Of a DNA stretch of 64,000 bases, positions 25,720 to 48,926 are shown one piece after another; position 1 is the first letter of the stretch; every line of letters starts with the position of its first letter. Origin of the DNA: Pelosinus fermentans JBW45 (GTDB lineage: Bacteria > Bacillota > Negativicutes > DSM-13327); assembly GCF_000271665.2 (NCBI RefSeq), contig NZ_CP010978.1:1210501-1274500 (forward strand), given 5' to 3'. A program made the translations under genes and the position numbers. The notes under the pieces are model-generated. The model worked only from the letters and a program-made list of their open reading frames with translations, did no database searches and had not been told where the DNA came from.

Positions 25720-25780
25720 TTGTTGGATTCAAATGAAGAATAAAGCCATAAAATAATTTATTGAGGAGAGAAATTTGATA

Positions 25781-25931
25781 TGATACCTAAATTGAAGCTG
25801 GTACGGATATCGTAAAAGTATTTCCAGGTGAAGCCTTTGGTCCATCTTTTATTAAAGCAATTAAGGGGCCGCTGCCCCAAGCACCGGTTGGAGATCTTCT
25901 GGCATTTGAAACATTAAAAATCAACAGTTAG
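25781..25931 (+). pseudogene. eda: KDPG aldolase deletion remnant
   Basis: A ribosome binding site (TTGAGGAG) and ATG at 25781 are followed by only a few codons. Another frame then reads EAGTDIVKVFPGEAFGPSFI and KAIKGPLPQAP, the classic Eda segment with the conserved phosphate-binding region. The catalytic Lys segment (normally before it) and the PTGGV segment (normally right after PQAP) are missing, and the frame jumps to GDLLAFETLKINS and a stop. At least two internal deletions have reduced a ~210-codon gene to about 150 bp. It is non-functional, so aldolase activity must be encoded elsewhere. Confidence 0.75.
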
Positions 25932-25943
25932 GGAGAGATTAAC

Positions 25944-26369
25944 ATGAGTATTGGAAATGATTGTTTTTATTGTCTAAAAGATCAACGGTTAGATGACTTA
26001 ATGATCGAAATAAGTAAAATGGAAGTTTCCACTTTGTATCTATTTAAAGAACAAACCTATGAGGGTAGATGTGTACTAGCCTATAAGGGACATCAAAATC
26101 ATCTAACTGAGCTAGATGATAAAGAGTATGCACTTTATATGAAGGATTTGGCAAGAGCGGCAAAGGCAATTATGAAGGCGTTCAATCCTGATAAACTGAA
26201 TTACGGTGCTTATTCAGATAAATTATCTCACTTACATTTTCATTTAGTACCTAAGTATCAGGATGGACCCTCATGGGGAGGAACCTTTGAGATGATGCCC
26301 GCAAAGAAAGTATTGCTTAGTGAGGCAGAGTATATAAAAATGATCAATCTCATCCAGAAAAACTTATAA
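25944..26369 (+). CDS. HIT-family nucleotide-binding protein
   Basis: The 141-residue histidine-triad protein has HLHFHLVPKY as the triad (H-x-H-x-H) and an N-terminal CFYC pair that could bind zinc. HIT proteins hydrolyse or transfer nucleoside monophosphates from substrates such as AMP-NH2 or Ap4A. GGAGAG lies before the ATG at 25944. It directly follows the eda remnant and may share the kdgK transcript, but a functional link to uronates is not evident. A strong terminator follows at 26432-26474. Confidence 0.88.
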   Translation: MSIGNDCFYCLKDQRLDDLMIEISKMEVSTLYLFKEQTYEGRCVLAYKGHQNHLTELDDKEYALYMKDLARAAKAIMKAFNPDKLNYGAYSDKLSHLHFHLVPKYQDGPSWGGTFEMMPAKKVLLSEAEYIKMINLIQKNL

Positions 26370-26431
26370 TTTTAAATAGGAATTTATTATTAGATAAGCA
26401 GCCCTAAAAAATAGTAAAGATATAATAGTAA

Positions 26432-26474
26432 AATAATGCTTTATAAGTTATGATTTCGCTTATAAGGCATTATT
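26432..26474 (+). terminator. Terminator of the uronate operon end
   Basis: AATAATGCTTTATAAG (26432-26447) pairs with CTTATAAGGCATTATT (26459-26474), with one mismatch, and is followed by TATTTTTAG. Confidence 0.75.
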
Positions 26475-26576
26475 TATTTTTAGCTATTTTTTATTCTTTC
26501 GTTTTTGCAGGGGTGTAGAGAGTATATGTAGAAATCTGTAGTACAATCAAATTTGTTTGAGGAGATGAAAGATCAT

Positions 26577-27740
26577 ATGATCCAGCAAGCTGAGCGCATG
26601 AAAGGACTGACATCAGCAATTTTTTCGCAATTAGAAGAACTGCAGAAGAAGGCAGCAGCCTCTGGCGTGGATATCATTCAACTTTCCATTGGAAATCCAG
26701 ATATGGCTCCGGCACCCCATATTGTAGAAGCCATGAAACAGGCAGTGGAGTGCGGTGATAATTATGGCTATACGTTATCAAAAGGTAAGCCGGAACTTTT
26801 GCAGGCGATTGCCGGGTGGTATGATAAAAAATTTGATGTACAATTAGATCCCGATACCGAAGTCCATTCTCTGATTGGTTCTCAGGAAGGATTGGCTCAT
26901 ATTGGACTTTGCCTAGTGAATCCGGGAGATGTAGTGCTTATTCCTGATCCGGGATATCCTATTTTCAGCGCAGGTCCATATATTGCTGGCGCCCAGCTGC
27001 ATAAGATGTGTTTAACTCCTGAAAATAATTACCTGCCAGATTTGGATGGGATTGACGAAGAGATATTAAAACGTACTAAACTAATGATTTTGAATTATCC
27101 TAATAACCCTTTAGCTGCTACGGCAACACGTGAGTTTTATGAAAAAGTGGTAGCATTGGCACATCGGTATCAGTTTGTGGTTTGTAGTGATTTTGCATAT
27201 AGTGAATTAGTTTTTGATGATTATCGTCCTGAGAGCTTTTTAAGTATTCCAGGGGCGAAAGAAATTGGCATCGAGTTTAATTCCCTGTCTAAAAGCTATA
27301 ACATGTGCGGCTGTCGTATTGCATATGTTGTTGGTAATTCCCAGGTTATATCGCTGCTGGGCCGTCTAAAATCGAATTTTGACTATGGCATATTTGCGCC
27401 CGTGCAGCTTGCTGCTATTGCTGCGTTAACAGGTCCCCAGGATTGTGTAAGAGAAACGGCCGCTGCTTATCAAAGGCGCCGTGATATCATTGTGGATGGT
27501 TTTAATAGTATAGGATGGCATGTAGAACGTCCAAAAGCGTCCATGTATATATGGGCTAAGGTGCCAACAAAGCAAAGTTCTTTTGATTTTACTGTTGACC
27601 TGCTCAACCATACAGGTGTAGCAGTAGTTCCGGGTAAAGCCTTTGGTGATTGCGGGGAGGGTTTTGTCAGAATTGCCTTAGTACAGCCAGAAGAGAGATT
27701 GACGGAAGCGGTGGCAAGAATAAAGAAATGGCTAAGATAA
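26577..27740 (+). CDS. Class I aminotransferase, LL-DAP/aspartate type
   Basis: The 387-residue PLP enzyme is of the fold-type I DapL/AspC-like branch. It shows IIQLSIGNPD, GSQEGLAHI, the NYPNNPLAA block, an SDFAYSEL cofactor-Asp/Tyr segment, the Schiff-base Lys in SLSKSYNMCGCRIAYV, and the C-terminal Arg in FVRIAL. Such proteins are often annotated as LL-diaminopimelate or aspartate aminotransferases. The specific donor is not settled by sequence. ATG 26577 is preferred (MIQQAERMK matches family starts). A TTG 24 bases upstream and ATG 26565 are alternatives. It has no clear functional link to its neighbours. Confidence 0.85.
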   Translation: MIQQAERMKGLTSAIFSQLEELQKKAAASGVDIIQLSIGNPDMAPAPHIVEAMKQAVECGDNYGYTLSKGKPELLQAIAGWYDKKFDVQLDPDTEVHSLIGSQEGLAHIGLCLVNPGDVVLIPDPGYPIFSAGPYIAGAQLHKMCLTPENNYLPDLDGIDEEILKRTKLMILNYPNNPLAATATREFYEKVVALAHRYQFVVCSDFAYSELVFDDYRPESFLSIPGAKEIGIEFNSLSKSYNMCGCRIAYVVGNSQVISLLGRLKSNFDYGIFAPVQLAAIAALTGPQDCVRETAAAYQRRRDIIVDGFNSIGWHVERPKASMYIWAKVPTKQSSFDFTVDLLNHTGVAVVPGKAFGDCGEGFVRIALVQPEERLTEAVARIKKWLR

Positions 27741-28045
27741 ACAGGACGCATAGAGTTTCTCGGGGGTAAAAAATCAAAGTTGTTTTTTCGCTAGGACGGT
27801 CAAGGGGATGAGGCTGTTGATATTTGCAGGTTCATGAATTATAGAGAATAAGAGATGAAAATCAGAATATAACAACAATAATAAAACTAACTTAAATGTA
27901 TTGCAATGTATAAAAACATGATATATAATCTAAACAAGTTAAGTTAATGACGTTTAAGTTGTCTTTGGTTAAGAGTACAACGAAGTGCCGACCGAATGCC
28001 TGTGTGCATTCTGGTCGGCTATTACTTTTATAAGGGGGGAGTATA
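27741..28045. other. Upstream region of the nitrogenase locus
   Basis: No gene supported. The stretch from about 27880 to 27960 is A/T-rich and ends in hairpin element E1 at 27975-28030, just before the integrase-like gene. Confidence 0.45.
27975..28030 (+). promoter_or_regulatory. Conserved hairpin element E1 (Mo/nitrogenase-linked)
   Basis: GTACAACGAAGTGCCGACCG begins the element. Stem GCCGACC/GGTCGGC continues as GAATGC/GCATTC around a CTGTGT loop with one bulged T, and TATTACTTTT follows. The same leader word GTACAA-N-GA-N-GT-N-CCG and stem architecture recur at 39729 and 46040, each beside molybdenum or nitrogenase genes. It could be an RNA attenuator or a DNA operator of a dimeric regulator. 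Its closeness to the start at 28046 favours control of that gene. Confidence 0.65.
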
Positions 28046-29026
28046 GTGCCGGGTGATAGCACATTTGTTTTGACAGGATTGCAGCTAGTGATAATGGGTG
28101 ATGTGGAAGCGGATGCACCAGATGGGTCGATTGGGTTTACTAGGAATTCGTATAGAAAGGAAAGCAAAGAAGTTGCTGTTGTTTCTGAGGCTATGCCTCC
28201 TGTAACGAGTAACAAATTTACTAGAGAAAAACGTAGTGAGTTACTAATGACTATCTGCTTGAAGTATCCTTTTTGGAATGAATTTCGTATATTGGATTTT
28301 TTGAATAAGCATGGTATTTCTATGACAATGGAAGAGTTAAAAGGTCTGCGTAGAGAGTGTGGCATTGATAGTCGGGAAGATGTTTGCCTGGAGTTAATGC
28401 GGCTCTATTTTAATAAGGAAATTAAATTAGATAAAAAACAAGTACAGTTTATCGAAAGACTGAATCCAGCCTTTCGTGACCGAGAGTTTTTAGCAGCTAG
28501 ACCTGGTGATTTACTTGTATATGAATGTATTTTTTTTCGAAAGTTAAATAAAATGTTTTATCTCCACTTCGTATTTGATTTATTTAATGGTTATGCTTTT
28601 GGCAAAGTAAGCCGTCGTTGTTCAGGAGAAATAGGGTTGAAACTGCTGCAGGAAAAAATAGTTCCATTTTATCGTAAAAGAGGTTATAAAGTTCGTGCTA
28701 TTTTGCATTCGATCAAATCCACTCGGGAACATTGGGAGGCAGAAGAATCGAGTATCCGCGGAAGTGTTTTAGCAATGAGCATCGAGTGGTTGGACCCTAA
28801 ACATGAATTTGGCATTATACAACGTTTTAAGCAGGATTTCTTAGATGATTTTTTCAAAGATGCAGAGACGCTTGATGTATCTCTATTAATGATTCAGCCA
28901 GCTTTTGATCGGAGGATGATCAAATACAACTCTGCCTGTCCTTTTCATCAAAGGCGTAATCTATTAGGATATCTGGATGATTTAGAAAGTACGGACAGGA
29001 GACCTTTGGAAGTCAACTGTAATTAA
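28046..29026 (+). CDS. Integrase-fold (DDE-like) protein lacking catalytic acids
   Basis: The 326-residue protein matches the retroviral-integrase-like core of IS3/IS481-type transposases across residues about 150-315: PGDLLVYECIFF, VFDLFNGYAFGKV, VPFYRKRGYKVRAIL, GIIQRFKQDFLDDFF and a CPFHQRRNLLGYL tail. At the three catalytic positions the expected D, D and E are replaced: Glu160, His/Ser at 221-222 where TDNG is usual, and Gln259. Residues 60-130 are helical and HTH-like. The frame is fully open and preceded by AAGGGGGGAG and a GTG at 28046, so it is under selection rather than a dead transposon. It lies between hairpin E1 and the anfH leader. A DNA- or RNA-binding regulator of the nitrogenase operon is plausible (inference). 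No terminal inverted repeats are seen. Confidence 0.7.
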   Translation: MPGDSTFVLTGLQLVIMGDVEADAPDGSIGFTRNSYRKESKEVAVVSEAMPPVTSNKFTREKRSELLMTICLKYPFWNEFRILDFLNKHGISMTMEELKGLRRECGIDSREDVCLELMRLYFNKEIKLDKKQVQFIERLNPAFRDREFLAARPGDLLVYECIFFRKLNKMFYLHFVFDLFNGYAFGKVSRRCSGEIGLKLLQEKIVPFYRKRGYKVRAILHSIKSTREHWEAEESSIRGSVLAMSIEWLDPKHEFGIIQRFKQDFLDDFFKDAETLDVSLLMIQPAFDRRMIKYNSACPFHQRRNLLGYLDDLESTDRRPLEVNCN

Positions 29027-29055
29027 GACCGACGAATCCAAAACAATAACAAAAA

Positions 29056-29086
29056 GCTCCACGAGTATTCGTGGTACTCATGGAGC
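29056..29086 (+). repeat. anfH leader stem-loop R1
   Basis: A 31-nt hairpin pairs GCTCCA-C-GAGTA with TACTC-A-TGGAGC around TTCGTGG. The loop and upper stem (GAGTATTCGTGGTACTC) recur in R2 and R3 while the lower stem changes on both sides together, which is compensatory covariation. R1 lacks the conserved tail seen after R2 and R3. Confidence 0.75.
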
Positions 29087-29097
29087 AAAGTAAAAAT

Positions 29098-29187
29098 CTT
29101 TTATCAGTATTCGTGGTACTCATAAAGGGAGTCGAAATTCTAATTCCAGTGGCGCTAGGTCTATTTCGTTTACCCATTTTTCATATA
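29098..29187 (+). repeat. anfH leader unit R2 (stem-loop plus conserved tail)
   Basis: The stem-loop at 29098-29127 keeps the AGTATTCGTGGTACT top but has a TTTAT/ATAAA lower stem. A tail follows containing CCAGTGGCGCTAGGT and GTTTACCC. The whole unit aligns with R3 over about 89 columns with roughly three quarters identity by eye. The two copies could be tandem aptamer-like RNA domains. Confidence 0.7.
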
Positions 29188-29244
29188 TCAATCGGCTTCA
29201 TTATTAATTTAAGGGGGTGGTTTTATAGATTTTGCAATAAAAAT

Positions 29245-29332
29245 GCTTCATGAGTATTCGTGGTACTCATGAAGCGAGGCAAACTTCCTAATCCCAGTGG
29301 CACTAGGTTCATTCGATTTACCCGTTTCACAT
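29245..29332 (+). repeat. anfH leader unit R3 (stem-loop plus conserved tail)
   Basis: The perfect hairpin GCTTCATGAGTA/TACTCATGAAGC around TTCGTGG (29245-29275) is followed by the tail CCAGTGGCACTAGGTTCATT and ATTTACCC. It ends about 120 nt before anfH. Within 29027-29454 I see no coding gene and no clear sigma-54 promoter. Confidence 0.7.
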
Positions 29333-29382
29333 TATAACACGTTGGTTTTCTTTTTTCAACAAGAGGGTGAAAAAAGGAATGA

Positions 29383-30282
<900 letters not shown>

Positions 30283-30315
30283 TTGACAACAAAAAAATAG
30301 GAGGAGAGCGCATAT

Positions 30316-30642
30316 ATGATTATGGTTAGAGCAATTGTTAGACCAGATAAAAAAGAAGTAGTTCTTGACGAACTTTCCAGCGCTGGGTTTCATGCTGCTA
30401 CTGTAGTAGATGTTGTAGGTCGCGGGAAACAAAAGGGGATCAAGTTTGGCGATGTTATATATGATGAAATTCCGAAAAGTCTTATTATGTTAGTCATTCA
30501 TGATGAAGATAAAGAGGATGTACTAGATGTTATTATCCGTCATGCTAAGACCGGTGAAGCGGGAGCTTTTGGCGACGGGAAAATATTTATAAGTTCTACG
30601 GACGAAGTATATACCGTTTCCAGCGGCGTTGCTGGGTTATAG
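30316..30642 (+). CDS. nifI1: PII-like nitrogenase regulator NifI1
   Basis: The 108-residue GlnB/PII-family protein (MIMVRAIVRPDKKEVVLDEL, FGDGKIF near the C-terminus) is encoded directly after anfH. In methanogens and anaerobic bacteria, NifI1 and NifI2 form a complex that binds dinitrogenase and blocks it when 2-oxoglutarate is low and ammonium is present. The T-loop region GRGKQKGIKFGDVIYDEIPK lacks the uridylylation Tyr context of GlnB. It lies 34 bp after anfH and 14 bp before nifI2. Placement between anfH and anfD means this Fe-only enzyme has its own post-translational switch. Confidence 0.93.
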   Translation: MIMVRAIVRPDKKEVVLDELSSAGFHAATVVDVVGRGKQKGIKFGDVIYDEIPKSLIMLVIHDEDKEDVLDVIIRHAKTGEAGAFGDGKIFISSTDEVYTVSSGVAGL

Positions 30643-30655
30643 GGGAGGCGGTGTT

Positions 30656-31063
30656 ATGAAAGAAATTATAGCCGTAGTAAGGATCAATAAGGTCAGCGCT
30701 ACCAAAAAGGCATTGGTACAAGTCGGGGCTGCCGGTTTTACAGCTTTGAAGGTCATGGGGCGGGGCAGATTAGTAGAGGATAAAGCTGTAATTGCTGAAC
30801 GTAGAGCAACCCTATTAGCCTTAGCTCAGAAAGATGATTATAATACGGAAAAGCTGATAACCAAATTCTTAGACGGGACTCGTTTATTCCCCCGCAGGAT
30901 GTTTACTGTTTTAGCTCATGACGAAGATGTGCCTAAGATTGTCGCGGCCATCATTGAAGCTAATAAAACCGATTACAATGTTGGTGACGGGAAAATCTTT
31001 GTATTACCAGTGCTTGACGCAGTAAGGGTGAGAACGAAGGAATCTGGAGATGCGGCAATATAG
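30656..31063 (+). CDS. nifI2: PII-like nitrogenase regulator NifI2
   Basis: The 135-residue PII-family partner of NifI1 is longer in the T-loop region (LVEDKAVIAERRATLLALAQ and following residues), as typical for NifI2. It ends in NVGDGKIFVLPV. The ATG at 30656 follows GGGGAGG. An upstream in-frame start at 30629 would overlap nifI1. It acts with NifI1 to sense 2-oxoglutarate and ATP/ADP, according to work on methanogen homologues. Confidence 0.93.
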   Translation: MKEIIAVVRINKVSATKKALVQVGAAGFTALKVMGRGRLVEDKAVIAERRATLLALAQKDDYNTEKLITKFLDGTRLFPRRMFTVLAHDEDVPKIVAAIIEANKTDYNVGDGKIFVLPVLDAVRVRTKESGDAAI

Positions 31064-31086
31064 TGAAATGATTGTTAGATGATTAA

Positions 31087-32679
<1,593 letters not shown>

Positions 32680-32696
32680 GGGAGGGGAGGATATTT

Positions 32697-33047
32697 ATGG
32701 AAGATATGATGAAAGACAGAGTTGAACAACTGGTAGATTATATTATGAAAAAATGTCTGTGGCAGTTTCATTCCCGGTCCTGGGACAGAGAGAAACAAAA
32801 CGAGGGAATCCTGACGAAAACCATGCAGATATTGTGTGAAGAACCCGTTAAGAAAGAAACTCCGACGGATAAATGTTATTGGGTAGATGCCGTATATTTG
32901 GCTGATGCTTTTAAATCTCGTTATTCATGGATGGCTACGCTGGACAAAGAAGAAATTAAGCTACTTATGCAGGAACTCAAAGATCGCATAGACTACCTAA
33001 CGATTAAGGGATCCCTTAATGCAGAACTTACTGACCCGCATTATTAA
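32697..33047 (+). CDS. anfG: Fe-only dinitrogenase delta/gamma subunit
   Basis: The 116-residue third subunit is found only in V- and Fe-only nitrogenases. It shows [20 protein letters not shown] followed by [11 protein letters not shown], and a C-terminal helical region. The ATG at 32697 follows GGAGGGGAGG, and an ATG seven codons upstream is rejected. It lies 17 bp after anfD and 70 bp before anfK. It helps stabilise cofactor insertion in the D subunit, according to studies of the family. Confidence 0.95.
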
Positions 33048-33117
33048 AGCCTAACAATCAAAAAAACTGTGCCGTCACGGCGGACGCAAAATGAAACGAA
33101 AAGGAAGGAGTATTTCT

Positions 33118-34506
33118 ATGCAATGTGAAGTGAAAAACAAAGAGCGTGTCGGCGTTATCAATCCAATATTAACATGCCAGCCTTGTGGCGCGCAGTATGC
33201 CAGTATAGGAATAAAGGAGTGTATTGGGATCGTTCATGGAGGTCAGGGGTGCGTTATGTTCGTCCGTCTGCTGTTCTCCCAGCATTTTAAAGAGAGTTTT
33301 GAGCTTGCGTCTTCTTCCCTCCATGAGGATGGTGCAGTGTTTGGTGCTACCCATCGTGTGGAAGAAGCGGTAGATGTGCTTTTGATGCGGTATCCTCATG
33401 TGAAAGTTATACCTATCATCTCAACCTGCTCAACGGAAGTTATCGGCGATGATATTGATGGTGTCGTTTTGAAGCTGAATAGCGGGCTTTTGAAAGAAAA
33501 ATATGCTGGTCGGGAGGTTCATCTCATTCCCATTCATTCTCCTAGCTTTAAGGGGAGTATGGTGAGCGGCTACGATGTTGCAGTAAAGGATATTGTCAGT
33601 CATTTTGCAAAAAAAGATAAACCAAACGGAAAAATTAACTTGTTCACTGGATGGGTGAATCCGGGGGATGTAACAGCACTTAAACATCTTCTAACAGAAA
33701 TCCAGGTAGATGCTACCGTTCTTTTCGAAATTGAGAGCTTTGATTCTCCTCTGATGCCCGACGGAAACTCGGTGTCCTATGGTAATACGACAATTGAGGA
33801 TCTAACTGAAACAGCGGATGCCTTGGGAACTATCGCGCTAAACAGGTACGAAGGCGGTCAGGCTGCCAAATATCTTGAAAATGAATTTGATATTCCGACC
33901 ATCATTGGACCGACTCCTATCGGCATCCGCAATACGGATATCTTTCTTCAGAATGTGAAGAAAATCACCGGTAAACCAATTCCTGCGTCTCTTGTTCGAG
34001 AGCGTGGCATTGCCCTTGATGCGCTGACGGATCTTACCCATATGTTTTTTGCTGATAAGAAAGTCGCTATCTACGGGAACGCTGATCTTGTTATTGGTCT
34101 TGCAGAGTTCTGCCTTGATTTGGAGATGAAACCCGTGTTGCTTCTATTGGGTGACGATAATACGTCCTACCCTAACGATCCCCGTATTAAAGCACTTCAG
34201 GAAAACGTTTCCTTTGAGATGGAAGTCATTATGAATGCAGATTTGTGGGAACTGGAAAACCGGATTAAGAACGAGGGACTTGAACTGGATTTGATTTTGG
34301 GTCACTCTAAGGGAAGGTTTATCTCCATTGACTATAATATTCCCATGGTGCGTGTAGGTTTCCCAACTTACGACCGTGCAGGATTGTATCGTCATCCCGT
34401 TGTCGGCTATGCAGGTGCCACATGGCTAGGGGAAGAAATAGCAAATACGCTGTTTACCGACATGGAATACAAGAAGAACAAGGAATGGGTTCTCAATGTT
34501 TGGTAA
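33118..34506 (+). CDS. anfK: Fe-only dinitrogenase beta subunit
   Basis: The 462-residue beta chain shares the P cluster: NPILTCQPCGAQYASIGIKE and HGGQGCVMFVR carry the Cys ligands, with another in ISTCSTEVIGDD. The C-terminus is short and typical of AnfK (HPVVGYAGATWLGEEI). The ATG at 33118 follows AAGGAAGGAG, and a start nine codons earlier is rejected. It closes the structural operon. A long hairpin at 34570-34607 separates it from nifB. Confidence 0.96.
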   Translation: MQCEVKNKERVGVINPILTCQPCGAQYASIGIKECIGIVHGGQGCVMFVRLLFSQHFKESFELASSSLHEDGAVFGATHRVEEAVDVLLMRYPHVKVIPIISTCSTEVIGDDIDGVVLKLNSGLLKEKYAGREVHLIPIHSPSFKGSMVSGYDVAVKDIVSHFAKKDKPNGKINLFTGWVNPGDVTALKHLLTEIQVDATVLFEIESFDSPLMPDGNSVSYGNTTIEDLTETADALGTIALNRYEGGQAAKYLENEFDIPTIIGPTPIGIRNTDIFLQNVKKITGKPIPASLVRERGIALDALTDLTHMFFADKKVAIYGNADLVIGLAEFCLDLEMKPVLLLLGDDNTSYPNDPRIKALQENVSFEMEVIMNADLWELENRIKNEGLELDLILGHSKGRFISIDYNIPMVRVGFPTYDRAGLYRHPVVGYAGATWLGEEIANTLFTDMEYKKNKEWVLNVW

Positions 34507-34569
34507 GAGCATGTAATGCATTTGATTCTAAAAGGTCAATCATTGCAAAGTTAACGGTAATTTGTAGGA

Positions 34570-34607
34570 TTCTGCCAGTTCCTGATGATGATCAGGTTCT
34601 GGCAGAA
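34570..34607. terminator. Stem-loop between anfK and nifB
   Basis: TTCTGCCAG and CCTGAT pair with ATCAGG and CTGGCAGAA around GATG, with a symmetric internal TT/TT loop. No T tract follows, so it may be an mRNA-stabilising or processing structure rather than a full terminator. Confidence 0.5.
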
Positions 34608-39661: not shown

Positions 39662-39728
39662 GGAATAAATAGATTGAAAGCGATGAAACATATGGGTATA
39701 ATGAAAATAAACTAAAATCATCCTTTGT

Positions 39729-39785
39729 GTACAATGACGTACCGGTCGGATGTGCTGATGCACTCTTGAACCGGTTTTAATTTTA
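39729..39785 (+). promoter_or_regulatory. Conserved hairpin element E2
   Basis: It starts GTACAATGACGTACCGGTCG, with ACCGGT/ACCGGT and GTGC/GCAC pairings around TGAT, and is followed by TTTAATTTTAGG. It shares the GTACAA-N-GA-N-GT-N-CCG leader and stem arrangement of E1 and E3. It precedes the binding protein-GTPase-ATPase operon by about 85 bp. Confidence 0.65.
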
Positions 39786-39868
39786 GGTAAGAGAAAAAAG
39801 TTAGTAATTAAAACTAGAAAAACGGATATTCTGTAAATGATGCGATAGGAAAAGGGGGGGGGAAGGAT

Positions 39869-41107
39869 ATGGAGCAAATACAACTAACGATGACAATTGG
39901 TGAAATTATTAAGAACTATCCTGAAACACGGGAGGTATTTATTAATAATGGTTTCTCCATTTTTGCTGATGATACAGTAATACAGCAGTTGGGAGTGGTA
40001 TTAAAGTTAAAAACGGCCTTAAAAAGTAAAAATATAAACGAAGAATCTTTTATGAAGCTGCTGCAAGGAAAAATTGCAGAAACGGACAGATATAAGAACT
40101 TACAAACGACAGTGCTTGAAAATGACTCAAACCACTTAAATATGTTGTCCCTATTGCCTTGTCCATTAAAAGTTCCCATGCAAGGGGAATTAAAATTATT
40201 TCTGGACTACTTGCGTGAAGAAAAAAATCTGCCCTTGAATTACTGCATCGAATCTTTTTTCAATGATCATTTAGATTATGAAGATTATCTGGAGCATTTT
40301 GAAGAGGCTGATGAAATACCTGATATCATCATGACTGCTGGCTATGGCTTTTTTTATAAAAAATTCATGGATCGTTTTGTTGCCAAAGGAGTCTTTGCTG
40401 ACGTGATCAATCGTCCAGTAAATTCTCGTTTGGCTGAGGCTGGTATCATTGATCCTGATGGACATTTTACAGTGATTGGTGCCAATGTTCTTGTTATGGT
40501 AGTGGATAAAAATCGTTTAGGAAACATTCCTATACCTAAGACCTGGGGAGATTTATTAAAACCTGAATATGAAAATAAAGTAGTGATGCGTGGTCATGGC
40601 GACACGTTTTGTGATGTAGTGCAGCTTAACTATTATAAAGATTATGGGGCAGCGGGAGTGGAGCAATTAGGACGGTCCGTAAAGTATGGACTCCATCCGG
40701 CACAAATGGTAAAAGAGCTTACCAGCAGCCGCAAAGATGTGCCGCCCATTCATATTATGCCTTACTTTTTTTACAAAACTATGAAGGAGTCTGACCATAT
40801 AAGAATCCTATGGCCCGAAGATGGAATCTTAACCTATCCCATATCTGTATTGATCAAAGCGGATAAAATGCAAGAACTGCAAGAATTAGCGGAGTATCTG
40901 ACCGGTCCAGAAATTGCACGGATTTGCGCAGAAGCTTATTTCCCGGCGACCCATGGGGATGTAAAAGTGAACCTTCCTGAACATGTGAAATTAAAATGGC
41001 TGGGCTGGGATTTTATTAAAAGCAATGATATGAAATATCTCGTGGAAACCATGAATGATACCTTTATGCGGGTATATCGTGAGGGAGGAAAAGAAGTATG
41101 CAGCTAA
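39869..41107 (+). CDS. Cytosolic substrate-binding-like protein with DUF1858-like N-domain
   Basis: The 412-residue protein starts with a DUF1858-like helical domain (residues 8-50, MTIGEIIKNYPETREVFINN). A type II periplasmic-binding-protein fold similar to extracellular solute-binding proteins for iron or oxyanions follows (IPIPKTWGDLLKPEYENKVV, then YPISVLIKADKMQELQ). There is no signal peptide or lipobox, so unlike transporter partners it should stay in the cytoplasm. LPCPLKVPM at 96-104 carries a Cys. Its gene overlaps the next by 10 bp, implying coupled translation, and hairpin E2 lies upstream. Binding a metal oxyanion or cofactor inside the cell is inference. Confidence 0.7.
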   Translation: MEQIQLTMTIGEIIKNYPETREVFINNGFSIFADDTVIQQLGVVLKLKTALKSKNINEESFMKLLQGKIAETDRYKNLQTTVLENDSNHLNMLSLLPCPLKVPMQGELKLFLDYLREEKNLPLNYCIESFFNDHLDYEDYLEHFEEADEIPDIIMTAGYGFFYKKFMDRFVAKGVFADVINRPVNSRLAEAGIIDPDGHFTVIGANVLVMVVDKNRLGNIPIPKTWGDLLKPEYENKVVMRGHGDTFCDVVQLNYYKDYGAAGVEQLGRSVKYGLHPAQMVKELTSSRKDVPPIHIMPYFFYKTMKESDHIRILWPEDGILTYPISVLIKADKMQELQELAEYLTGPEIARICAEAYFPATHGDVKVNLPEHVKLKWLGWDFIKSNDMKYLVETMNDTFMRVYREGGKEVCS

Positions 41108-41784
41108 TTACTGTTGCCGGACCACCTTCGGCGGGGAAAACTTCCGTTATGTTAAAGATCATTGAAACTCTCCAGGAAGAAACGCTGAAAGTGGGTGTGA
41201 TCAAGTTTGATTGCTTGTCTACCCAGGATCAGATTCTCTATCAAAAAAAAGGCATCGAGGCAAAGATTGGTCTGTCGGGAAATCTTTGTCCAGATCATTT
41301 TTTTGTAAGTAATGTTCAGGATTGCTTAACATGGTCGCAAAAAAATAATTTAGATATGTTAATTACGGAGAGTGCTGGTTTGTGCAATCGGTGTTCTCCT
41401 CATATTCGTGATGTCATGGCAGTTTGCGTGATTGACAATTTGAGCGGAGTGAATACCCCAAGAAAAGTCGGACCCATGTTAAAATTAGCCGATATCGTCA
41501 TTATAACGAAAGGTGATATCGTTTCCCAAGCGGAGCGGGAGGTCTTTGCTTTTCGGGTAAAGCAGGCAAATCCAAGTGCAATCATTGTCCATGTAAATGG
41601 TATTACTGGTCAGGGGGCTAGGGAAGTTGGTCAACTCTTTAAAGGAGCTCAAGGTGTGGATAGCCTTACAGATTATCATCTGCGCTTTTCTATGCCGGCA
41701 GCTACTTGTTCCTATTGCTTGGGACAAACTCGTATCGGGCAAAACTTTCAAATGGGTAATGTTCGCAAAATGGATCTTAGCTAG
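41098..41784 (+). CDS. HypB/CooC-like P-loop GTPase with paired Cys motifs
   Basis: The 228-residue protein is of the SIMIBI nickel/metal-insertion GTPase group. The Walker A is GPPSAGKTS (residues 8-16), a switch-like segment follows ITESAGLCNRCSP, and TKGD (137-140) is the guanine-specificity motif. Cysteine pairs C96-N-R-C99 and C204-S-Y-C207 suit metal binding. HypB and CooC use NTP hydrolysis to load Ni into hydrogenase or CO dehydrogenase. Here the neighbours are a cytosolic binding-like protein and an orphan ABC ATPase, so a metallochaperone for another metal, perhaps Mo, is possible but unproven. Confidence 0.75.
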   Translation: MQLITVAGPPSAGKTSVMLKIIETLQEETLKVGVIKFDCLSTQDQILYQKKGIEAKIGLSGNLCPDHFFVSNVQDCLTWSQKNNLDMLITESAGLCNRCSPHIRDVMAVCVIDNLSGVNTPRKVGPMLKLADIVIITKGDIVSQAEREVFAFRVKQANPSAIIVHVNGITGQGAREVGQLFKGAQGVDSLTDYHLRFSMPAATCSYCLGQTRIGQNFQMGNVRKMDLS

Positions 41785-41836
41785 AAGTAGATCGCATTGT
41801 AGTAAGGTAGGTTGTTATTAGGAAGGTGGGTTTGTA

Positions 41837-42856
41837 ATGTGGGATCATTTGTCTGTAATGACAGTAAAACAATTGTTTACTTCATATCCTTATGCGACGG
41901 ATTTTTTTTCGTCGCTGCCAAATCTTCAGCAAAGTGAGGAATCTTCTGTTGCGGCATATTTCGCTGCTATCGAGGAAGATACGCTGCAAGATTTAGGAAT
42001 TGGTCGACAAGAGCTTTTAGATCAGTTTCTTTCTTTTATGCTGCAAATGGAAAAATTAAAAGAAGATAAGGTTAAAATTGAGTCCATTACTATTATAGGC
42101 GGCAGGGACAAGCAGGGAAAAGTCGAAGACATAGAACTAACGATACATGCGGGTGAAATTGTCTGCATTGTGGGACCTACTGGTTCCGGCAAGAGCCGAT
42201 TACTTGCTGATATTGAATGGGTAGCACAACATGATACACCGACCAATCGCAAAATATTGATCAATGGACAGCTGCCTGATATGAGATGCCGATTTTCTGT
42301 TGAACATAAGCTAGTAGCCCAGCTTTCTCAAAATATGAATTTTATTATGGATCTATCTGTAGAAGAATTTGTCAGTATGCATGCAGAAAGCAGGATGCTG
42401 GAGAATATAGAAGAAGTAACCAGTCATATTATCGCCAAAGCCAACGAATTGGCCGGAGAACAATTTAACCCCGATACACCTGTTACCTCTTTAAGTGGAG
42501 GTCAGTCTAGGGCTTTAATGATTGCCGATACAGCCTATTTAAGTTCGTCCCCCATTGTACTGATTGACGAAATCGAAAATGCCGGTATTGATCGTCAAAA
42601 TGCGTTGCGATTACTCATTGATAAGCAAAAAATAGTACTAATGGCAACTCATGATCCTATTTTGGCGCTAATGGGGGATAAACGAATTGTTATCAAAAAT
42701 GGCGGTATCAGTAAGGTAATTGAAACTTCTGAGAAAGAAAGAGAAAATTTAATCTTATTAACACAAATCGATCGAAAGATGTTAGCGATTCGAGAAGTGT
42801 TGCGTAGCGGTGGACGAATTAATGAAATTCCCGTGGAGTTGGAGGAAATAATTTAA
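41837..42856 (+). CDS. Orphan ABC-type ATPase with DUF1858-like N-terminus
   Basis: Residues 1-70 resemble the DUF1858-like helix seen in the gene at 39869 (MTVKQLFTSYPYATDFFSSL). An ABC nucleotide-binding domain follows, with Walker A GPTGSGKSR at 113-121, signature LSGGQSRALM, Walker B IVLIDEIENAG and H-loop MATHDP. No permease gene is near it, so it may be a soluble ABC ATPase, like those in Fe-S or metal-insertion machines, rather than a transporter part. AAGGTGG precedes the ATG at 41837. It is the third gene of the E2 operon, followed by a terminator at 42885-42910. Confidence 0.75.
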   Translation: MWDHLSVMTVKQLFTSYPYATDFFSSLPNLQQSEESSVAAYFAAIEEDTLQDLGIGRQELLDQFLSFMLQMEKLKEDKVKIESITIIGGRDKQGKVEDIELTIHAGEIVCIVGPTGSGKSRLLADIEWVAQHDTPTNRKILINGQLPDMRCRFSVEHKLVAQLSQNMNFIMDLSVEEFVSMHAESRMLENIEEVTSHIIAKANELAGEQFNPDTPVTSLSGGQSRALMIADTAYLSSSPIVLIDEIENAGIDRQNALRLLIDKQKIVLMATHDPILALMGDKRIVIKNGGISKVIETSEKERENLILLTQIDRKMLAIREVLRSGGRINEIPVELEEII

Positions 42857-43215: not shown

Positions 43216-43222
43216 TAATTTT

Positions 43223-43385: not shown

Positions 43386-44090
43386 CTAATAAAAATATTG
43401 AAAAGAACTCCTAGTTGGTTTACCATTGGCATTCATATTCCAAGAAGGTGGTGGCTCAGACACTTGTTGCCCTTGGTGGAGAAATAAGACTTCGCTGCCT
43501 ATTGCCTGGGCTTCTTCTGGTGAATGGGTGACAAGGACGAAGGGAATGTTCCAGATTTCCTGCAGTCTTTTTAGTTCATCCTGCAATTCGTAGCGACTTT
43601 GGGCATCAAGAGCAGATAAGGGTTCGTCGAGTAAAAGGATCTGAGGCTCAGCCATTAATGCACGAGCCATAGCCACACGTTGTTTTTCACCACCGGATAA
43701 TTGGCTTATGGAGCGGTGGGGTAGATGTTCGATTTTTAATAAAGTAATCAGCTTTTCGTATAATTCATTGGCTTCTTGGCTGGGAGTTTTTACACCATAC
43801 CAAATATTATGCTTAACATTCATGTGGGGAAACAGTGCGAAGTCCTGAAACATATAGCTGACATTTCTCTTTTTAGGTGGTAAATGAATAGTTTTCGTGG
43901 AAGAATAAAAAACAGTATCATTAGAAACAATACTGCCTTCATCTGGTTTCAGTAAACCTGCAATACAGCGCAAGATGGTTGTTTTACCACAGCCGGAAGG
44001 ACCAAATAAAACAATGGTTTTATTAGGAGCAGTAAAAGAGATATTCAGAGTAAAATCAGATAATTTTTTTTTGATATCTACTGTTAGCAT
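43386..44090 (-). CDS. modC: Molybdate ABC transporter ATPase
   Basis: The 234-residue nucleotide-binding subunit has Walker A GPSGCGKTT, signature LSGGEKQRVAMARAL, Walker B ILLLDEPLSALD and H-loop VLVTHSPEEA. It lacks the C-terminal Mop domain present in E. coli ModC, which is compensated by the free-standing mop gene at 43012. It follows modB after 16 bp in the same minus-strand operon. It powers uptake of molybdate through ModB. Confidence 0.92.
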   Translation of the reverse strand: MLTVDIKKKLSDFTLNISFTAPNKTIVLFGPSGCGKTTILRCIAGLLKPDEGSIVSNDTVFYSSTKTIHLPPKKRNVSYMFQDFALFPHMNVKHNIWYGVKTPSQEANELYEKLITLLKIEHLPHRSISQLSGGEKQRVAMARALMAEPQILLLDEPLSALDAQSRYELQDELKRLQEIWNIPFVLVTHSPEEAQAIGSEVLFLHQGQQVSEPPPSWNMNANGKPTRSSFQYFY

Positions 44091-44106
44091 GCTGTGCTCC
44101 TTCCTT

Positions 44107-44775
44107 TTAGTGCAAAGTAATGTTTTTTCCTTTCCAATGGTTTAATCCGAAAATAATAGAAAAGGTGATTACGCTGATAATGATTACATACATCCCTGCT
44201 GTTATTAAGTCATTTGATTCTGTGGCAAAATAAATTGCCAATGGAATGGTTTGTGTCTTACCGGGAATATTACCGGCAATCATAATGGTAGCGCCAAATT
44301 CTCCTAAGGTTCTTGCAAAGGATAATACTAAACCGGATACCAGCCCCGGCCAGGATAATGGCATGGTAACCGTCCAAAATACCCGCCATTCGCTAGCTCC
44401 TAAAGTACGGGCAGCATCTTCTAGTGTTTTATCGATACCTTCAAATGCTGCCTTAGTGCTCTGGTACATTAGCGGAAAGGATACAACAGTACCTGCCAGA
44501 ACAGCTGCAGATTGCGTAAAAATAATTTGCATGTCAAAATATTTCGTTAGAAGAATTCCTACGGGTCCTTGTTTACCAACTAAGATTAACAGTAAAAATC
44601 CAATGACGACAGGAGGCAAGACCAAAGGGAGAGTAAACAAAGATTCGAGGGCTGCTTTGCCTGGGATATCGGTGCTGCGCATGACATTAGCCGATAATAC
44701 GCCAAGAAAAAATACAAAGAGCACTGAAATAGATGCAACCTTGATTGAAAGAATAACGGGCTGCCATTCGACCAT
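44107..44775 (-). CDS. modB: Molybdate ABC transporter permease
   Basis: The 222-residue integral membrane subunit has about five to six helices and the ModB EAA loop (AARTLGASEWRVFWTVTMPL) that docks ModC. ARTLGEFGATIMIAGNIPGK is the typical ModB segment. It is encoded 152 bp after modA, and the gap holds a 102-bp imperfect palindrome. It partners with ModA (44927-45730) and ModC. Tungstate transport cannot be excluded by sequence, but the pattern is ModB rather than TupB. Confidence 0.92.
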   Translation of the reverse strand: MVEWQPVILSIKVASISVLFVFFLGVLSANVMRSTDIPGKAALESLFTLPLVLPPVVIGFLLLILVGKQGPVGILLTKYFDMQIIFTQSAAVLAGTVVSFPLMYQSTKAAFEGIDKTLEDAARTLGASEWRVFWTVTMPLSWPGLVSGLVLSFARTLGEFGATIMIAGNIPGKTQTIPLAIYFATESNDLITAGMYVIIISVITFSIIFGLNHWKGKNITLH

Positions 44776-44816
44776 ACGTTTTCACCTGCACCATCTTGTT
44801 AAATTTGTATTATATA

Positions 44817-44918
44817 AAACGCACTAAGGACTGCTTATATCTGGAAAGTGAAAGATACTATCGCTCTTTGCGTAACGTCTTTTTCACAATATCCTGACGG
44901 CTAATCGTTAGTGCGTTT
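44817..44918. repeat. 102-bp structured element between modA and modB
   Basis: Terminal arms AAACGCACTAA and TTAGTGCGTTT (11 bp perfect) enclose GTGAA/TTCAC and a small GCG/CGC hairpin, giving a long imperfect palindrome. No T tract follows. It may be a MITE-like insertion or an RNA that lowers modBC relative to modA. Confidence 0.6.
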
Positions 44919-44926
44919 GTAACTGA

Positions 44927-45730
44927 TTATTTACTCATGGTAAAACCGTATTTTTCAAAAATAGCTTTGCATTCCGGAGTGCTTAAATAGGCAAGAAAAT
45001 CGGCAGCTGCTTTTTCTTGTTTGGTTCCTGATAAAACTGCCGCTGGATAAAGAATTGGCTGGTGAGAACCTTCTGGTGCAGTAGCTGCGACTTTCACTTT
45101 GTCACTGGATACGGCATCCGTTTTGTAAACGATACCCGCTTCTACGTTGCCTGTCTCCACATAAGTTAAGACGGTACGAACATCTTTGGCAAGAACCGCT
45201 TTACTTTGTATTTTATCCCAGATTCCCAATTTCTTTAGAACTTCCTGTGCATATTGTCCTGCTGGTACCGATCCTGTTTCACCAATACTTACTTTTTGAA
45301 CATCGTTCTTTGTTAAATCTTCATATTTGGTGATGTTGAGGGTAGAGGCTGTAGGAACAATCACAACGAGTTTGTTCTCTACTAAGTTTTTGCGTGTAGC
45401 CTTATTTACCAGGTTTTTTTCTTCTAAGTCATTCATCTGTTTTGGTGCTGCGGAAATAAAAATGTCAGCGGGAGCACCTTGTTCGATTTGCTTTTGTAAA
45501 GCACCTGAGGCTCCAAGATTATAGACTAGCTTAACATTGGCATTTTTTGTTTCATAGTTCTTTTGGATTTCAGCAAGAGCATCCTTTAAACTGACAGCGG
45601 CAGAAACGTTTAGCTCAACTTTCTGCGGTGGTGCGGCTGGAGTTGCTGGTTTTTCGCCACCACATCCTGTGGTTATTGCAGCTATTATTAGTAAGGCTGC
45701 AATTAAAAATAATAACAAATGTTTTTTCAA
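44927..45730 (-). CDS. modA: Molybdate-binding lipoprotein ModA (first)
   Basis: The 267-residue substrate-binding protein has a signal peptide ending in the lipobox TTGCG, so it is anchored outside the cytoplasmic membrane. The ModA core appears as SAAVSLKDALAEIQK, GASGALQKQIEQGAPADIFIS, GETGSVPAGQYA and VETGNVEAGIVYKTDA. The Ser and Tyr segments match molybdate contacts. GGGGAGG precedes the ATG. About 300 bp upstream on its strand lies hairpin E3, probably its control element. It heads modABC. Confidence 0.95.
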   Translation of the reverse strand: MKKHLLLFLIAALLIIAAITTGCGGEKPATPAAPPQKVELNVSAAVSLKDALAEIQKNYETKNANVKLVYNLGASGALQKQIEQGAPADIFISAAPKQMNDLEEKNLVNKATRKNLVENKLVVIVPTASTLNITKYEDLTKNDVQKVSIGETGSVPAGQYAQEVLKKLGIWDKIQSKAVLAKDVRTVLTYVETGNVEAGIVYKTDAVSSDKVKVAATAPEGSHQPILYPAAVLSGTKQEKAAADFLAYLSTPECKAIFEKYGFTMSK

Positions 45731-46108
45731 TGAATTTTCCTCCCCGATTTTTAATTTGAATAGTTCACTCTATAAAAAAACAACTAACATAGCCCAACAG
45801 AACTAGATTAGTTGATACAACATCGTATCTTTATATTAAATAAAAGCAATGAACTATAATAACAGGATATATGTAAAGTAATAGTGACTTTATAATTAAA
45901 ATACTACAAAATGATACCAGAGTCAATATAAAAGTCTTTGTTTTTATGTTATAAAAGGATTGAATAATATATATCAGTGAGTTATAATTGGGTTAAGTTT
46001 AATATAATACTGTTTGGTGGAAATGCAACCAAATTGTGTGTACAAAGAAGTACCGGCTGAACATTATTATGTTCTCAGCCGGTACTTCTTTTGTAAAAAA
46101 ATGAAATA
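45731..46108. other. modA upstream region
   Basis: A/T-rich intergenic DNA with no gene. It holds E3 (46040-46093) at its far end and presumably the modA promoter, which I cannot pin down. Confidence 0.4.
46040..46093. promoter_or_regulatory. Conserved hairpin element E3
   Basis: It reads GTACAAAGAAGTACCGGCTG, then a 16-bp perfect stem AAGAAGTACCGGCTGA with its complement around a 14-nt loop. It is near-symmetric, and the minus strand reads ACAAAAGAAGTACCGGCTGA toward modA. It shares the E1/E2 leader and stem. It may double as a terminator of the HTH-PBP gene. Confidence 0.65.
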
Positions 46109-47047
46109 TTACAGTTCTGCCATTATTTCGCCCATTTGCGATACATCATAGCCGCCCATACCTGCGATTTCATTGCGGAATATAGAAGAACGCAGTATTG
46201 ATATCAAGGCTTGGAAGTGAGGTTTCTCTAAATCATGTCGTAACATAACTAAATCATAACGTTCTTTTTGCAAGGGAATAAATTCGACATTCTGTACCTG
46301 CATCGCCGCCTTTTCAATACCTAACCCAACATCAGCCTCACCTCGAGCAACTGCGCTGGCGATGGCGAGATGACTAGTTTCTTCCTGGCTATAGTTTGGA
46401 ATGGCTCTAGGATCAAGCTTGAGCTGCTGAAACTTCTCATCAAGCAGTACTCTGGCACCGGAGCCGCGTTCTCTGTTAATGAACCGAATATCAGATCGCA
46501 GTAAATCGGGCCAGTCTTTTATATTCTTAGGATTACCAAGGGCTACATAAAAGCCTTCTTGGCGATATACTAAATTAATAATCAGAGCCCGTTGACCAGG
46601 TAATAAGTGACGCACATAAGGCGTATTATACTCTCCCGTATCTCCGTCCCAAAGGTGAGTGGTAATCAAATTAGCTGTACCACGATAGAGGGCAATTAGG
46701 CCATCCATACTGCCGTTGTATGAACGCAGAAACCTAACATGAGGCATCTTTTTTTCCAGATGACGCGTTAATACATCAAGAGCAGCATCCTGTCCATAAA
46801 TGATCAAGCCATCCTGACTAGAAGCAGGAACATTAATCATTTGTTGAGTAGGTTGTGGTGAGGCTGGCTGAGGAGTGCCTTTCGCTTTTTTCATGAAAGT
46901 ATCTAAATCGGATGCTTCTATACGCAGCTTGCGTCCGATATGATACGCAGTTAATTCGCCGCGTTTGATAAATTCATAGATCGTAAAACGTGATAGTTTA
47001 AGTATTTTGGCTACTTCTTCGGGGGTGTACGATATAGTGTCAGACAA
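46109..47047 (-). CDS. HTH-PBP one-component regulator of molybdate type
   Basis: The 312-residue protein has an N-terminal excisionase-like winged HTH (YTPEEVAKILKLSRFTIYEF, residues 6-25, on to about 55) and a Pro/Gln linker. Residues 78-312 form a PBP-like ligand domain (GQDAALDVLTRHLEKKMP, FINRERGSGARVLLDEKFQ, GEADVGLGIEKAA). This class is usually called a molybdate- or substrate-binding transcriptional regulator, and it stands in for ModE in many Firmicutes. It lies between modABC and modD. It is the natural candidate to bind the E1-E3 hairpin elements (inference). GTG/ATG alternatives do not matter much: ATG at 47047. Confidence 0.82.
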   Translation of the reverse strand: MSDTISYTPEEVAKILKLSRFTIYEFIKRGELTAYHIGRKLRIEASDLDTFMKKAKGTPQPASPQPTQQMINVPASSQDGLIIYGQDAALDVLTRHLEKKMPHVRFLRSYNGSMDGLIALYRGTANLITTHLWDGDTGEYNTPYVRHLLPGQRALIINLVYRQEGFYVALGNPKNIKDWPDLLRSDIRFINRERGSGARVLLDEKFQQLKLDPRAIPNYSQEETSHLAIASAVARGEADVGLGIEKAAMQVQNVEFIPLQKERYDLVMLRHDLEKPHFQALISILRSSIFRNEIAGMGGYDVSQMGEIMAEL

Positions 47048-47228: not shown

Positions 47229-48035
47229 ATGCAAATCTATCCATTAGAAATTGGTTTACAGGAAGATTGCCCTTACGCTGATATTACCACAGAATTATTA
47301 GGTATAGCGGGACTGGGGCGCTTGCAATTTATCACAAGAGAGGAAGCCGTGATAACTGGCTCAATTCGTCTCAAAGAATTCTTTGAAAGACAAAAATTGC
47401 AAGTCTTATTCTATCAAAAACCAGGTGTCTTAGTAAAGCAGGGCGATATTTTAATTGAAGCCGTTGGTGATTTAAAGACATTGTTTAAAATGTGGCGGAT
47501 TAGTCAGACGTATCTCACTGCTCTTTGTGCGATTGCAACTGAGACTCGCAACATTGTGAGTGCGGCGAGACAGGTTAATCCGGAGATTGAAATAGTCGTT
47601 GCCTGCCGTAAAGCACACCTGGGGATGAGGCAAGAAGAAATTGAGGCGGTTCAGGATGGGGGCGGATTATATCACCGTAATTCTTTGAGCGATACGGTAT
47701 TGATTACGCAAAATCATTTGCGAGTGCTTGGAAAACTGCCGATGAATATAAAATCTTTTCATCATAAAATTGAAATTGAACCGCGTAATGAAGCGGAGGC
47801 TTATGAATGTGCTAGCTTTTCCGATGTTATCCTGCTCGATCATTTTGAACCAGAGGTACTGCAAACGGTAGTGCAAAAACTTAAAACACTAAACCCACGA
47901 TTAAAAGTTGGTGTTGCTGGAGGCATAGGAGCATCTCGGGTGAAGGATTTCGCAGAATTTGTCGATCTAATTGTCTTGAGCGCTGTATTATATGCTGCTC
48001 CATTGGATTTCACTTGTAAAATTGAACGTATTTAA
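47229..48035 (+). CDS. modD: ModD (quinolinate phosphoribosyltransferase-like)
   Basis: The 268-residue protein is related to NadC, with the ADITTELLG start, LVKQGDILIEAVG, ACRKAHLGMRQEEIEAVQDG and a TIM-barrel C-terminus ending GVAGGIGASRVKDFAEFVD. ModD proteins are encoded with molybdenum transport genes in phototrophs and anaerobes, and their biochemical role is not known. The ATG at 47229 follows TAGGAGGG. Here it diverges from the HTH-PBP gene and precedes a second modA, supporting a link to molybdenum rather than NAD synthesis. Confidence 0.88.
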   Translation: MQIYPLEIGLQEDCPYADITTELLGIAGLGRLQFITREEAVITGSIRLKEFFERQKLQVLFYQKPGVLVKQGDILIEAVGDLKTLFKMWRISQTYLTALCAIATETRNIVSAARQVNPEIEIVVACRKAHLGMRQEEIEAVQDGGGLYHRNSLSDTVLITQNHLRVLGKLPMNIKSFHHKIEIEPRNEAEAYECASFSDVILLDHFEPEVLQTVVQKLKTLNPRLKVGVAGGIGASRVKDFAEFVDLIVLSAVLYAAPLDFTCKIERI

Positions 48036-48125
48036 TAAATCCATCTCAATTTCACTTAAACGGGATATTTTCTGATAATGGACTTTCACTTTGTAATTAA
48101 GCAGTCAATGAATAAGGAGGAATGC

Positions 48126-48926
48126 ATGTTGTCAATGAATAGGCTATATACCAAACTATGTCTTTTAGTATGTACTATGATGGTTTTATCTGGCTGTGGA
48201 AAGACAGAGGCTCCTAAGCCTCCTAAAGATCAACTGGTAGAAATCAATATATCGGCAGCTATGGGACTTAAAGATGCTCTAGGGGAAATTCAAAAAAAAT
48301 ATGAAGCGGATCATCCTGTTAAAATTGTATTTAACTTGGCGTCTTCAGGGGCATTAAAAACTCAAATAGAGCAAGGGGCACCAACGGATTTATTTATTTC
48401 CGCTGCTAGTAAACAAATGGATGAATTGCAAAAAAAGAATCTAATTATTCCTGCTACGCGCAAGAATTTAGTCGGAAACCAATTGGTATTGATTGTACCT
48501 GAGACTTCTCAACTTGAGTTGCATAGCTTTCAAGATCTGGCTAACGTAAGTGTTACCCGCTTTGGCATGGGTGTGCCGGAGACAGTACCAGCCGGGGAAT
48601 ATGCCAAACAGGTACTGGAAAAATTACAAGTATGGGAAACTGTGAAAGAAAAAGCTGTAATGCCTAAAGACATTCATAGCGTATTGACTTATGTGGAGAC
48701 AAGGAATGTAGAGGCTGGAATTGTCTTTTCTACCGTGGCAGCTGCAAGCGACAAAGTAAAAGTCGCTGCCATAGCGCCAGCGAATAGTCATGAACCAATC
48801 ATATTTCTAGGCGCTGTCGTGAGTAGTGCTAAGCATCCTAAAGAAGCAGAAGCATTTTTACAATATTTGACGAGTTCTGATGGGATGGCAGTGTTTACTA
48901 AATATGGTTTCCAAGGGATGCAATAA
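48126..48926 (+). CDS. modA: Molybdate-binding lipoprotein ModA (second)
   Basis: The 266-residue paralogue of the protein at 44927 has a signal peptide with lipobox LSGCG, then SAAMGLKDALGEIQKKYE, ASSGALKTQIEQGAPTDLFIS, ETVPAGEYAKQVL and VETRNVEAGIVFSTVA. ATG 48126 is chosen because AATAAGGAGG ends six bases upstream. No permease or ATPase follows, so it may feed ModBC with a different oxyanion preference or affinity. It is followed by the terminator at 48950-48979. Confidence 0.92.
   Translation: MLSMNRLYTKLCLLVCTMMVLSGCGKTEAPKPPKDQLVEINISAAMGLKDALGEIQKKYEADHPVKIVFNLASSGALKTQIEQGAPTDLFISAASKQMDELQKKNLIIPATRKNLVGNQLVLIVPETSQLELHSFQDLANVSVTRFGMGVPETVPAGEYAKQVLEKLQVWETVKEKAVMPKDIHSVLTYVETRNVEAGIVFSTVAAASDKVKVAAIAPANSHEPIIFLGAVVSSAKHPKEAEAFLQYLTSSDGMAVFTKYGFQGMQ

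Follow-up and report, generated by a model that had tools for sequence, protein, structure and literature searches.

A domesticated, catalytically dead IS481-type integrase as a candidate regulator in molybdenum and nitrogenase gene neighbourhoods of Negativicutes

The window, by which we mean the whole stretch of 64,000 nucleotides of Pelosinus fermentans JBW45 DNA that was analyzed, holds a gene for an integrase-like protein that sits between an aminotransferase gene and anfH. A DUF1858 cluster, the molybdate importer genes modCBA and the gene for an HTH_17-PBP regulator are found about 11-18 kb downstream of it (Table 1). The DUF1858/CobW/ABC cluster may be an as yet uncharacterised system for the uptake of a metal or oxyanion. 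It travels with modABC or with the integrase-like gene, in the window as well as in L085, L088, L143, L145 and L026.

Table 1. Features in and around the integrase-like gene, in window positions, and the basis of each assignment.
Feature	Position	Strand	Basis
Putative sigma-A promoter TTGCAA-17-TATAAT of the dead-integrase gene	27901..27929	+	10/12 consensus matches; weight limited by 5 promoter-like sites found in the region vs 4.9 expected
Leader hairpin ACAACGAAGTGCCGACC...GGTCGGC, between promoter and ribosome binding site	27973..28031	+	E 2.2e-6 (this leader is one of the 15 that built the model), covariation, fold z-score -2.3
Domesticated, catalytically dead IS481-type integrase-like protein, 326 aa	28046..29026	+	Frame, homology, triad, dN/dS, tree
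Candidate small-RNA unit B (R1/R2 region), not specific to the dead integrase	29089..29174	-	Model E 4.0e-6
Candidate small-RNA unit A (R3), not specific to the dead integrase	29236..29322	-	Model E 2.6e-15 (window unit is in the model)
anfH, two PII genes, anfD, anfG, anfK (Fe-only nitrogenase)	29449..34506	+	anfK above curated cut-off
Second leader copy, before DUF1858/SBP operon	39727..39787	+	E 0.05, weak
DUF1858 + SBP_bac_6 protein, CobW/HypB-like GTPase, ABC-type ATPase	39869..42856	+	Domains scanned on L085 and L029 homologues
modC, modB, modA (molybdate importer)	43386..45730	-	modB and modA above curated cut-off, modC below
Third leader copy, near-palindromic, between HTH_17-PBP regulator and modA	46038..46095	.	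E 1.4e-4 on +, 0.014 on -
HTH_17 + PBP_like regulator, candidate molybdate sensor	46109..47047	-	Domains; function inferred
QRPTase/ModD-like protein + second ModA	47229..48926	+	Domain scan

The frame of the integrase-like gene comprises 326 codons with a GTG start and no internal stop, and a purine-rich stretch, AAGGGGGG, lies directly 5' of the start, as expected from an initial annotation of this DNA that described a single intact frame with a good ribosome binding site. The absence of terminal inverted repeats, likewise claimed there, was confirmed: four inverted pairs were found around the window gene, none of which marks both its ends. With one match at E<=0.001 in the 5.38 Mb genome the gene is single-copy, and both hallmarks of an IS element, terminal inverted repeats and multiple copies, are absent for the window gene. 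The promoter layout is similar in relatives as judged by eye. The placement of the gene between two regulatory elements is correct as to position, but the downstream one, R1-R3, also occurs where the gene is missing (see below).

A Pfam scan of the protein gave no match over the cut-off. The NCBIfam model for IS3 transposases matched residues 133-222 of the window protein at E 1.5e-4, with 21.1 bits against a cut-off of 160, and that for IS481 transposases was found in four of eleven family members tested (best 1.7e-6). The relationship became evident upon comparison by hhalign of an 11-row profile of the family with three IS481-like proteins, of which only L036/L075 have the full triad; it yielded a probability of 99.7 and an E-value of 6e-27 over 251 columns. 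The matched stretch corresponds to the second helix-turn-helix region and the integrase core of L036, parts in which the protein is like the IS481-family transposases (NCBIfam NF033577; Pfam rve PF00665, HTH_32 PF13565). Unlike these, it has its first helix-turn-helix region replaced, by alignment, with a short N-terminal peptide, lacks the D-D-E triad in 25 members and recurrently neighbours molybdenum or nitrogenase genes; the window gene further differs in that no terminal inverted repeats were found. Aligned to L036, an IS481-like protein with intact D-D-E, the catalytic columns of the window protein are E160, S222 and Q259. This agrees with the E, H/S and Q of the initial annotation, whose H/S denotes H221-S222, with the serine in the catalytic column. 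The triad is absent in all 24 members found in the class and also in the one outside it, G577 (25/25), which has E, T and Q in these columns; among the 24, the first aspartate is kept in one, the second in none and the glutamate in eight. With regard to a ribonuclease-H-like fold, an AlphaFold model from four sequences reached a pLDDT of 46 and is fair for the helices at 60-138 only; a Foldseek search with this low-quality query returned nothing at E<=0.001, and sequence searches of the PDB with family profiles found no integrase.

A search of 60 relatives gave a match in 16 genomes. Among 380 genomes of the class, 25 have a match at E<=1e-15. In 24 of these it is a member, with an E-value no higher than 1.2e-61, the remaining one, G319, having a short transposase-like match only. 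A set of 299 genomes of the phylum, some of them of the same class, added a single member from outside the class, G577, with 39% identity. In a tree of 29 rows the 24 members and G577 stand on one side of a 100/100 branch, with G577 inside the group. Without G577 the 24 class members likewise form one group against four transposase-like rows, a comparison set that is thin because three of the four are themselves damaged and only one has an intact triad. Set aside as transposase-like were second or weak profile hits in G054 (the second), G303 (two), G311 (the second), G319 and G323 (the second), and a hit in G027. The ones in G054, G303 and G027 were read, and an intact triad was present in that of G054 only; those in G319, G311 and G323 were set aside on score alone. 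One frame in G303 (L079 1246-3153, G303:C38) consists of an IS481-like HTH and an integrase core with D, K and E, joined to what by eye is an HD-GYP-like region.

The dN/dS ratio, a measure proposed in the initial annotation, lies far from 1 for the integrase-like gene, at 0.15-0.34 for 21 pairs from seven Pelosinus sequences; the gene is therefore no pseudogene. In the same genus the ratio is 0.02-0.09 for anfD and 0.04-0.08 for the aminotransferase, and as the value for the integrase-like gene is several times that of anfD, the constraint on it is moderate. Homology, triad loss, dN/dS and tree thus agree in supporting a domesticated, catalytically dead protein under purifying selection, as had been supposed from the window alone.

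The neighbours of the 24 members are diverse. The gene adjoins anf in seven of them, the six Pelosinus loci (the window, G001, G002, G004, G005 and G006) and G303, and vnf in two, G054 and G323, with a divergent orientation in the last three genomes named. Four are found beside modABC (G026, G039, G050, G007), one inside a Moco cluster (G046) and five beside the DUF1858/SBP cluster with its ABC component (G309, G311-G314), while G043 has its member at a contig end and the stretches read around those of G017, G034, G304 and G306 contain no molybdenum or nitrogenase neighbour. An anf/vnf, mod or Moco neighbour occurs in eight of twelve genera (in g10, in one of three genomes only), which corresponds to p of about 3e-6 under a 10% rate of such neighbours for a random gene, a figure that serves as a guide only because the 10% was assumed and the neighbour classes were chosen after seeing them. 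AnfG/VnfG is present in 14 of the 24 member genomes, and AnfG in 24 of all 380. Counted by genus, co-occurrence with AnfG is 8/12 versus 12/102, with a hypergeometric p of about 1e-6 that is not corrected for relatedness. All ten members without AnfG, as well as G003 and G577, come from genomes with NifH-family matches of E 1e-100 or better; only such strong E-values count here, because the NifH family also matches in 14 of 14 control genomes. In G577 the member begins about 50 bp after an AnfO-family gene (L162 8143-9795), and a second AnfO-family gene of this genome is located about 8 kb from its best NifH match.

These distributions bear on the proposal of the initial annotation that the protein regulates the alternative nitrogenase. 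In its strict form, a dedicated regulator would control anfHDGK (or vnf) only, and both the adjoining anf and vnf operons and the co-occurrence with AnfG are in its favor. The linkage is real, but it is not general: 15 of the 24 members are not beside an anf/vnf operon, mod and Moco genes are among their other neighbours, and ten of the 24 genomes with AnfG (G020, G045, G157, G158, G159, G161, G162, G305, G316 and G336) have no member at E<=1e-15. G007 has the gene, with no anf on its 7.3 kb contig and no AnfG found in the 85%-complete genome. We therefore regard a dedicated regulator as unlikely. What the family is linked to is molybdenum and nitrogen fixation at large, not anfH alone, and a role confined to anf is less likely than one in molybdenum homeostasis that includes anf where present.

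Gain and loss were seen inside the genus Pelosinus. In G007 the gene is directly followed by a leader-like element, DUF1858, cobW, ABC and modCBA genes; the mod proteins are 94-97% identical and the last residues of the dead integrase are changed. In G003 the leader is kept and the gene is cut to an N-terminal remnant before the anfH operon (L139 about 5189-5300), on a contig that ends within anfD. G007 and G003 together imply that the gene can be retained where anf is missing, and vice versa, with the caveat that both are draft genomes in which an assembly error is possible. G313 has a decayed remnant beside its anf operon (L146 about 11069-11140) and an open-frame copy at its DUF1858 cluster. 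The idea that gene and anf were transferred as one block was rejected, because the gene, anfD and the aminotransferase do not agree with one another in their pairwise dS values.

Upstream of the start codon lies a leader hairpin whose conserved 5' arm is ACAAYGAAGTGCC. In 15 leaders, six of nine pairs show covariation, with a score of 0.462 against 0.197 upon shuffling (0/500) and at most 0.151 upon sliding; for two cruder covariation measures, 31 and 42 of 500 shuffles scored at least as high. At E<=0.01 the leader model detects the element before 21 of the 24 members, 15 of which built the model while the other six are congeners of those, and it gave no match for G017, G034 and G050. Across the 380 genomes it returned 25 further rows, one being the reverse strand of a leader and the other 24 located elsewhere. 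In Pelosinus, six extra copies are placed between the regulator gene and modA and three before the DUF1858 operon, with contexts that were read for the window and G004 and assigned by distance for the remainder. The second copy of the window recurs at matching distance in G001, G002, G005, G004 and G006. Further copies stand before the DUF1858 operon in G310, upstream of a further gene set in G004 (by position only), before a FecCD operon in G009, after the regulator gene in G046, once in G039, at the remnants in G003 and G313, and twice in G316, before an aminotransferase and before a transporter gene. The six weak rows from family f11, with E-values of 2.8e-4 to 6e-3, were not accepted as genuine, and the two inspected, in G229 and G281, look like terminators. 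Note that G009, G310 and G316 are genomes without the gene, and that several copies resemble ordinary terminators; the element is associated with the dead-integrase family, but not exclusive to it.

The position of the hairpin, which in 21 leaders stands between a TATAAT-like box (by eye) and the start codon, would suit an RNA-level switch, in which the protein, its integrase fold serving as a reader of RNA hairpins, would bind the transcript and influence termination or ribosome access. Covarying stem pairs and the U-rich runs that end several copies point the same way. The conservation, however, is on the 5' arm and can be explained by a DNA site too, no U-run is found in G312, G314 and G309, and the modA copy has no downstream gene on its better-scoring strand, so that we consider this switch quite unlikely. 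A sigma-54 reading of the leader was rejected: TGGCAC resembles a reverse-strand -24 box, but by eye the GC of the -12 box is missing. Of the 24 upstream regions 16 were used, and the 7-mer AAACTAA/TTAGTTT is present in 12 of these versus 2.2 expected; there is one copy within 300 nt upstream of the window gene and none before anfH.

The elements R1-R3 on the other side of the gene are candidate small RNAs opposite anfH and nifH. Read on the minus strand opposite anf, a unit of about 87 nt has a promoter TTGAAA-17-TATAAT, a CCTAGTGCCACTGGG hairpin and a terminator hairpin; in unit A the promoter is at 29359-29331 and the terminator hairpin at 29275-29245. The candidate usually comes in one or two tandem copies (L146, L081, L148, L164-L169, L210-L214 and window positions 29089-29322 on the minus strand). 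Its core pattern YCCAGTRGCRCTAGGNNYATT is present with up to two mismatches in 26, and with up to one in 16, of 33 genomes that were selected because they have the gene, AnfG or related sites, as compared to 10/33 for a backward control. Good matches just upstream of anfH are also found without the gene, in G020, G161, G162 and G316 (two mismatches). A model of the small RNA matched 46 of 369 class genomes at E<=0.001, a few of the 380 being outside this sample. Matches lie within 5 kb of AnfG in 22 of 24 AnfG genomes and within 250 nt of the best NifH match in eight of eleven class genomes, and at the five sites that were read they are divergent to nifH. Rfam models, including the Moco riboswitch, gave no match at gathering score in window positions 25000-45000 or at five loci, and three sub-threshold hits only on 27700-29500 at E<=10. 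As R1-R3 are found upstream of anfH with or without the gene, we rejected them as a specific target of the dead integrase. They belong to nitrogenase operons and represent a conserved candidate small-RNA family, a separate finding.

Since the gene is kept beside genes for molybdenum uptake and back-up nitrogen fixation, the dead integrase is probably a regulator of this metal switch, and a role in binding nucleic acid is plausible. The account that we favor, with some reserve, is that of a captured IS481-type transposase kept as a nucleic-acid-binding regulator of a molybdenum and nitrogen-fixation gene set, acting at the leader. The transposase would have lost the D-D-E triad and, by alignment, the first helix-turn-helix region, and would have been retained as a stand-alone regulator, with a reach that covers the genes for molybdate import and Moco synthesis, the DUF1858/ABC cluster and, in genomes that have one, the Fe-only or V nitrogenase. 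We infer binding, target, signal and direction of regulation as follows. The leader element, a hairpin with the conserved 5' arm given above, is the most likely binding site of the protein, on DNA or on the transcript. As the element is found both in the leader of the gene itself and beside some of the target operons, autoregulation and coordinated control by molybdenum status would result. Fe-only and V nitrogenases are generally repressed by molybdenum. As the dead integrase has no recognized ligand domain, it would receive the molybdenum signal through a partner, for example the HTH_17-PBP protein whose gene lies close by. More speculatively, integrase and leader may be a captured pair of transposase and transposon end, in which the hairpin derives from the end of the element and the protein still reads it but has lost the ability to cut. 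In Negativicutes the pair would then set, according to molybdenum status, whether molybdenum uptake and the Mo nitrogenase or instead the Fe-only or V nitrogenase is used; we judge this rather unlikely.

Alternatively, the protein could have been domesticated for something else, such as silencing the transposition of related IS481 elements or a structural role, and have its molybdenum neighbourhood by chance. Intact or decaying IS481-like copies do exist in G054, G303 and G381, and four members have no recognized molybdenum neighbour. Against this, such neighbours or nitrogenase genes recur in 8/12 genera and AnfO is a neighbour in another class, and the window genome has no second match to the protein; we hold this alternative to be improbable. 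A neutral transposase relic that has yet to decay, as the remnants beside anf in G003 and G313 might suggest, is already contradicted by the dN/dS values, by frames that have stayed open in eight families within the class and in a ninth from outside, and by the common loss of the second aspartate (0/24), and has next to no probability left.

The reuse of transposases as host genes is of a kind already known, and the titles and abstract openings that we surveyed contain no mention of the dead integrase, its leader or the small RNA, nor of an IS481-derived, molybdenum-linked bacterial family. The TunR-type tungstate/molybdate regulators of sulfate reducers are a case of an integrase-related protein reused in Mo/W regulation. 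TunR is a tyrosine-integrase-like protein with TOBE domains, and compared with this general description the dead integrase is of the DDE type and has no recognized ligand domain. The HTH_17-PBP_like one-component regulators (PF12728 + PF12727), candidate molybdenum sensors, neighbour the same modABC genes; they have a ligand-binding-type domain, and no sequence relation to the dead integrase was noted. Control of the alternative nitrogenase, part of the role proposed here, is shared with the NifA/AnfA activators of nitrogenase genes. NifA/AnfA are AAA+ enhancer-binding proteins, and in contrast to these no AAA+ domain was found by Pfam in the dead integrase.

To our knowledge, the choice among Mo, V and Fe nitrogenases in anaerobic Bacillota is poorly understood. 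With a candidate regulator family, a candidate cis element and gain and loss within one genus, in G003 and G007, this question becomes directly testable. If the proposed role is true, the dead integrase would exemplify the conversion of a DDE transposase into a housekeeping regulator, something unusual among bacteria.
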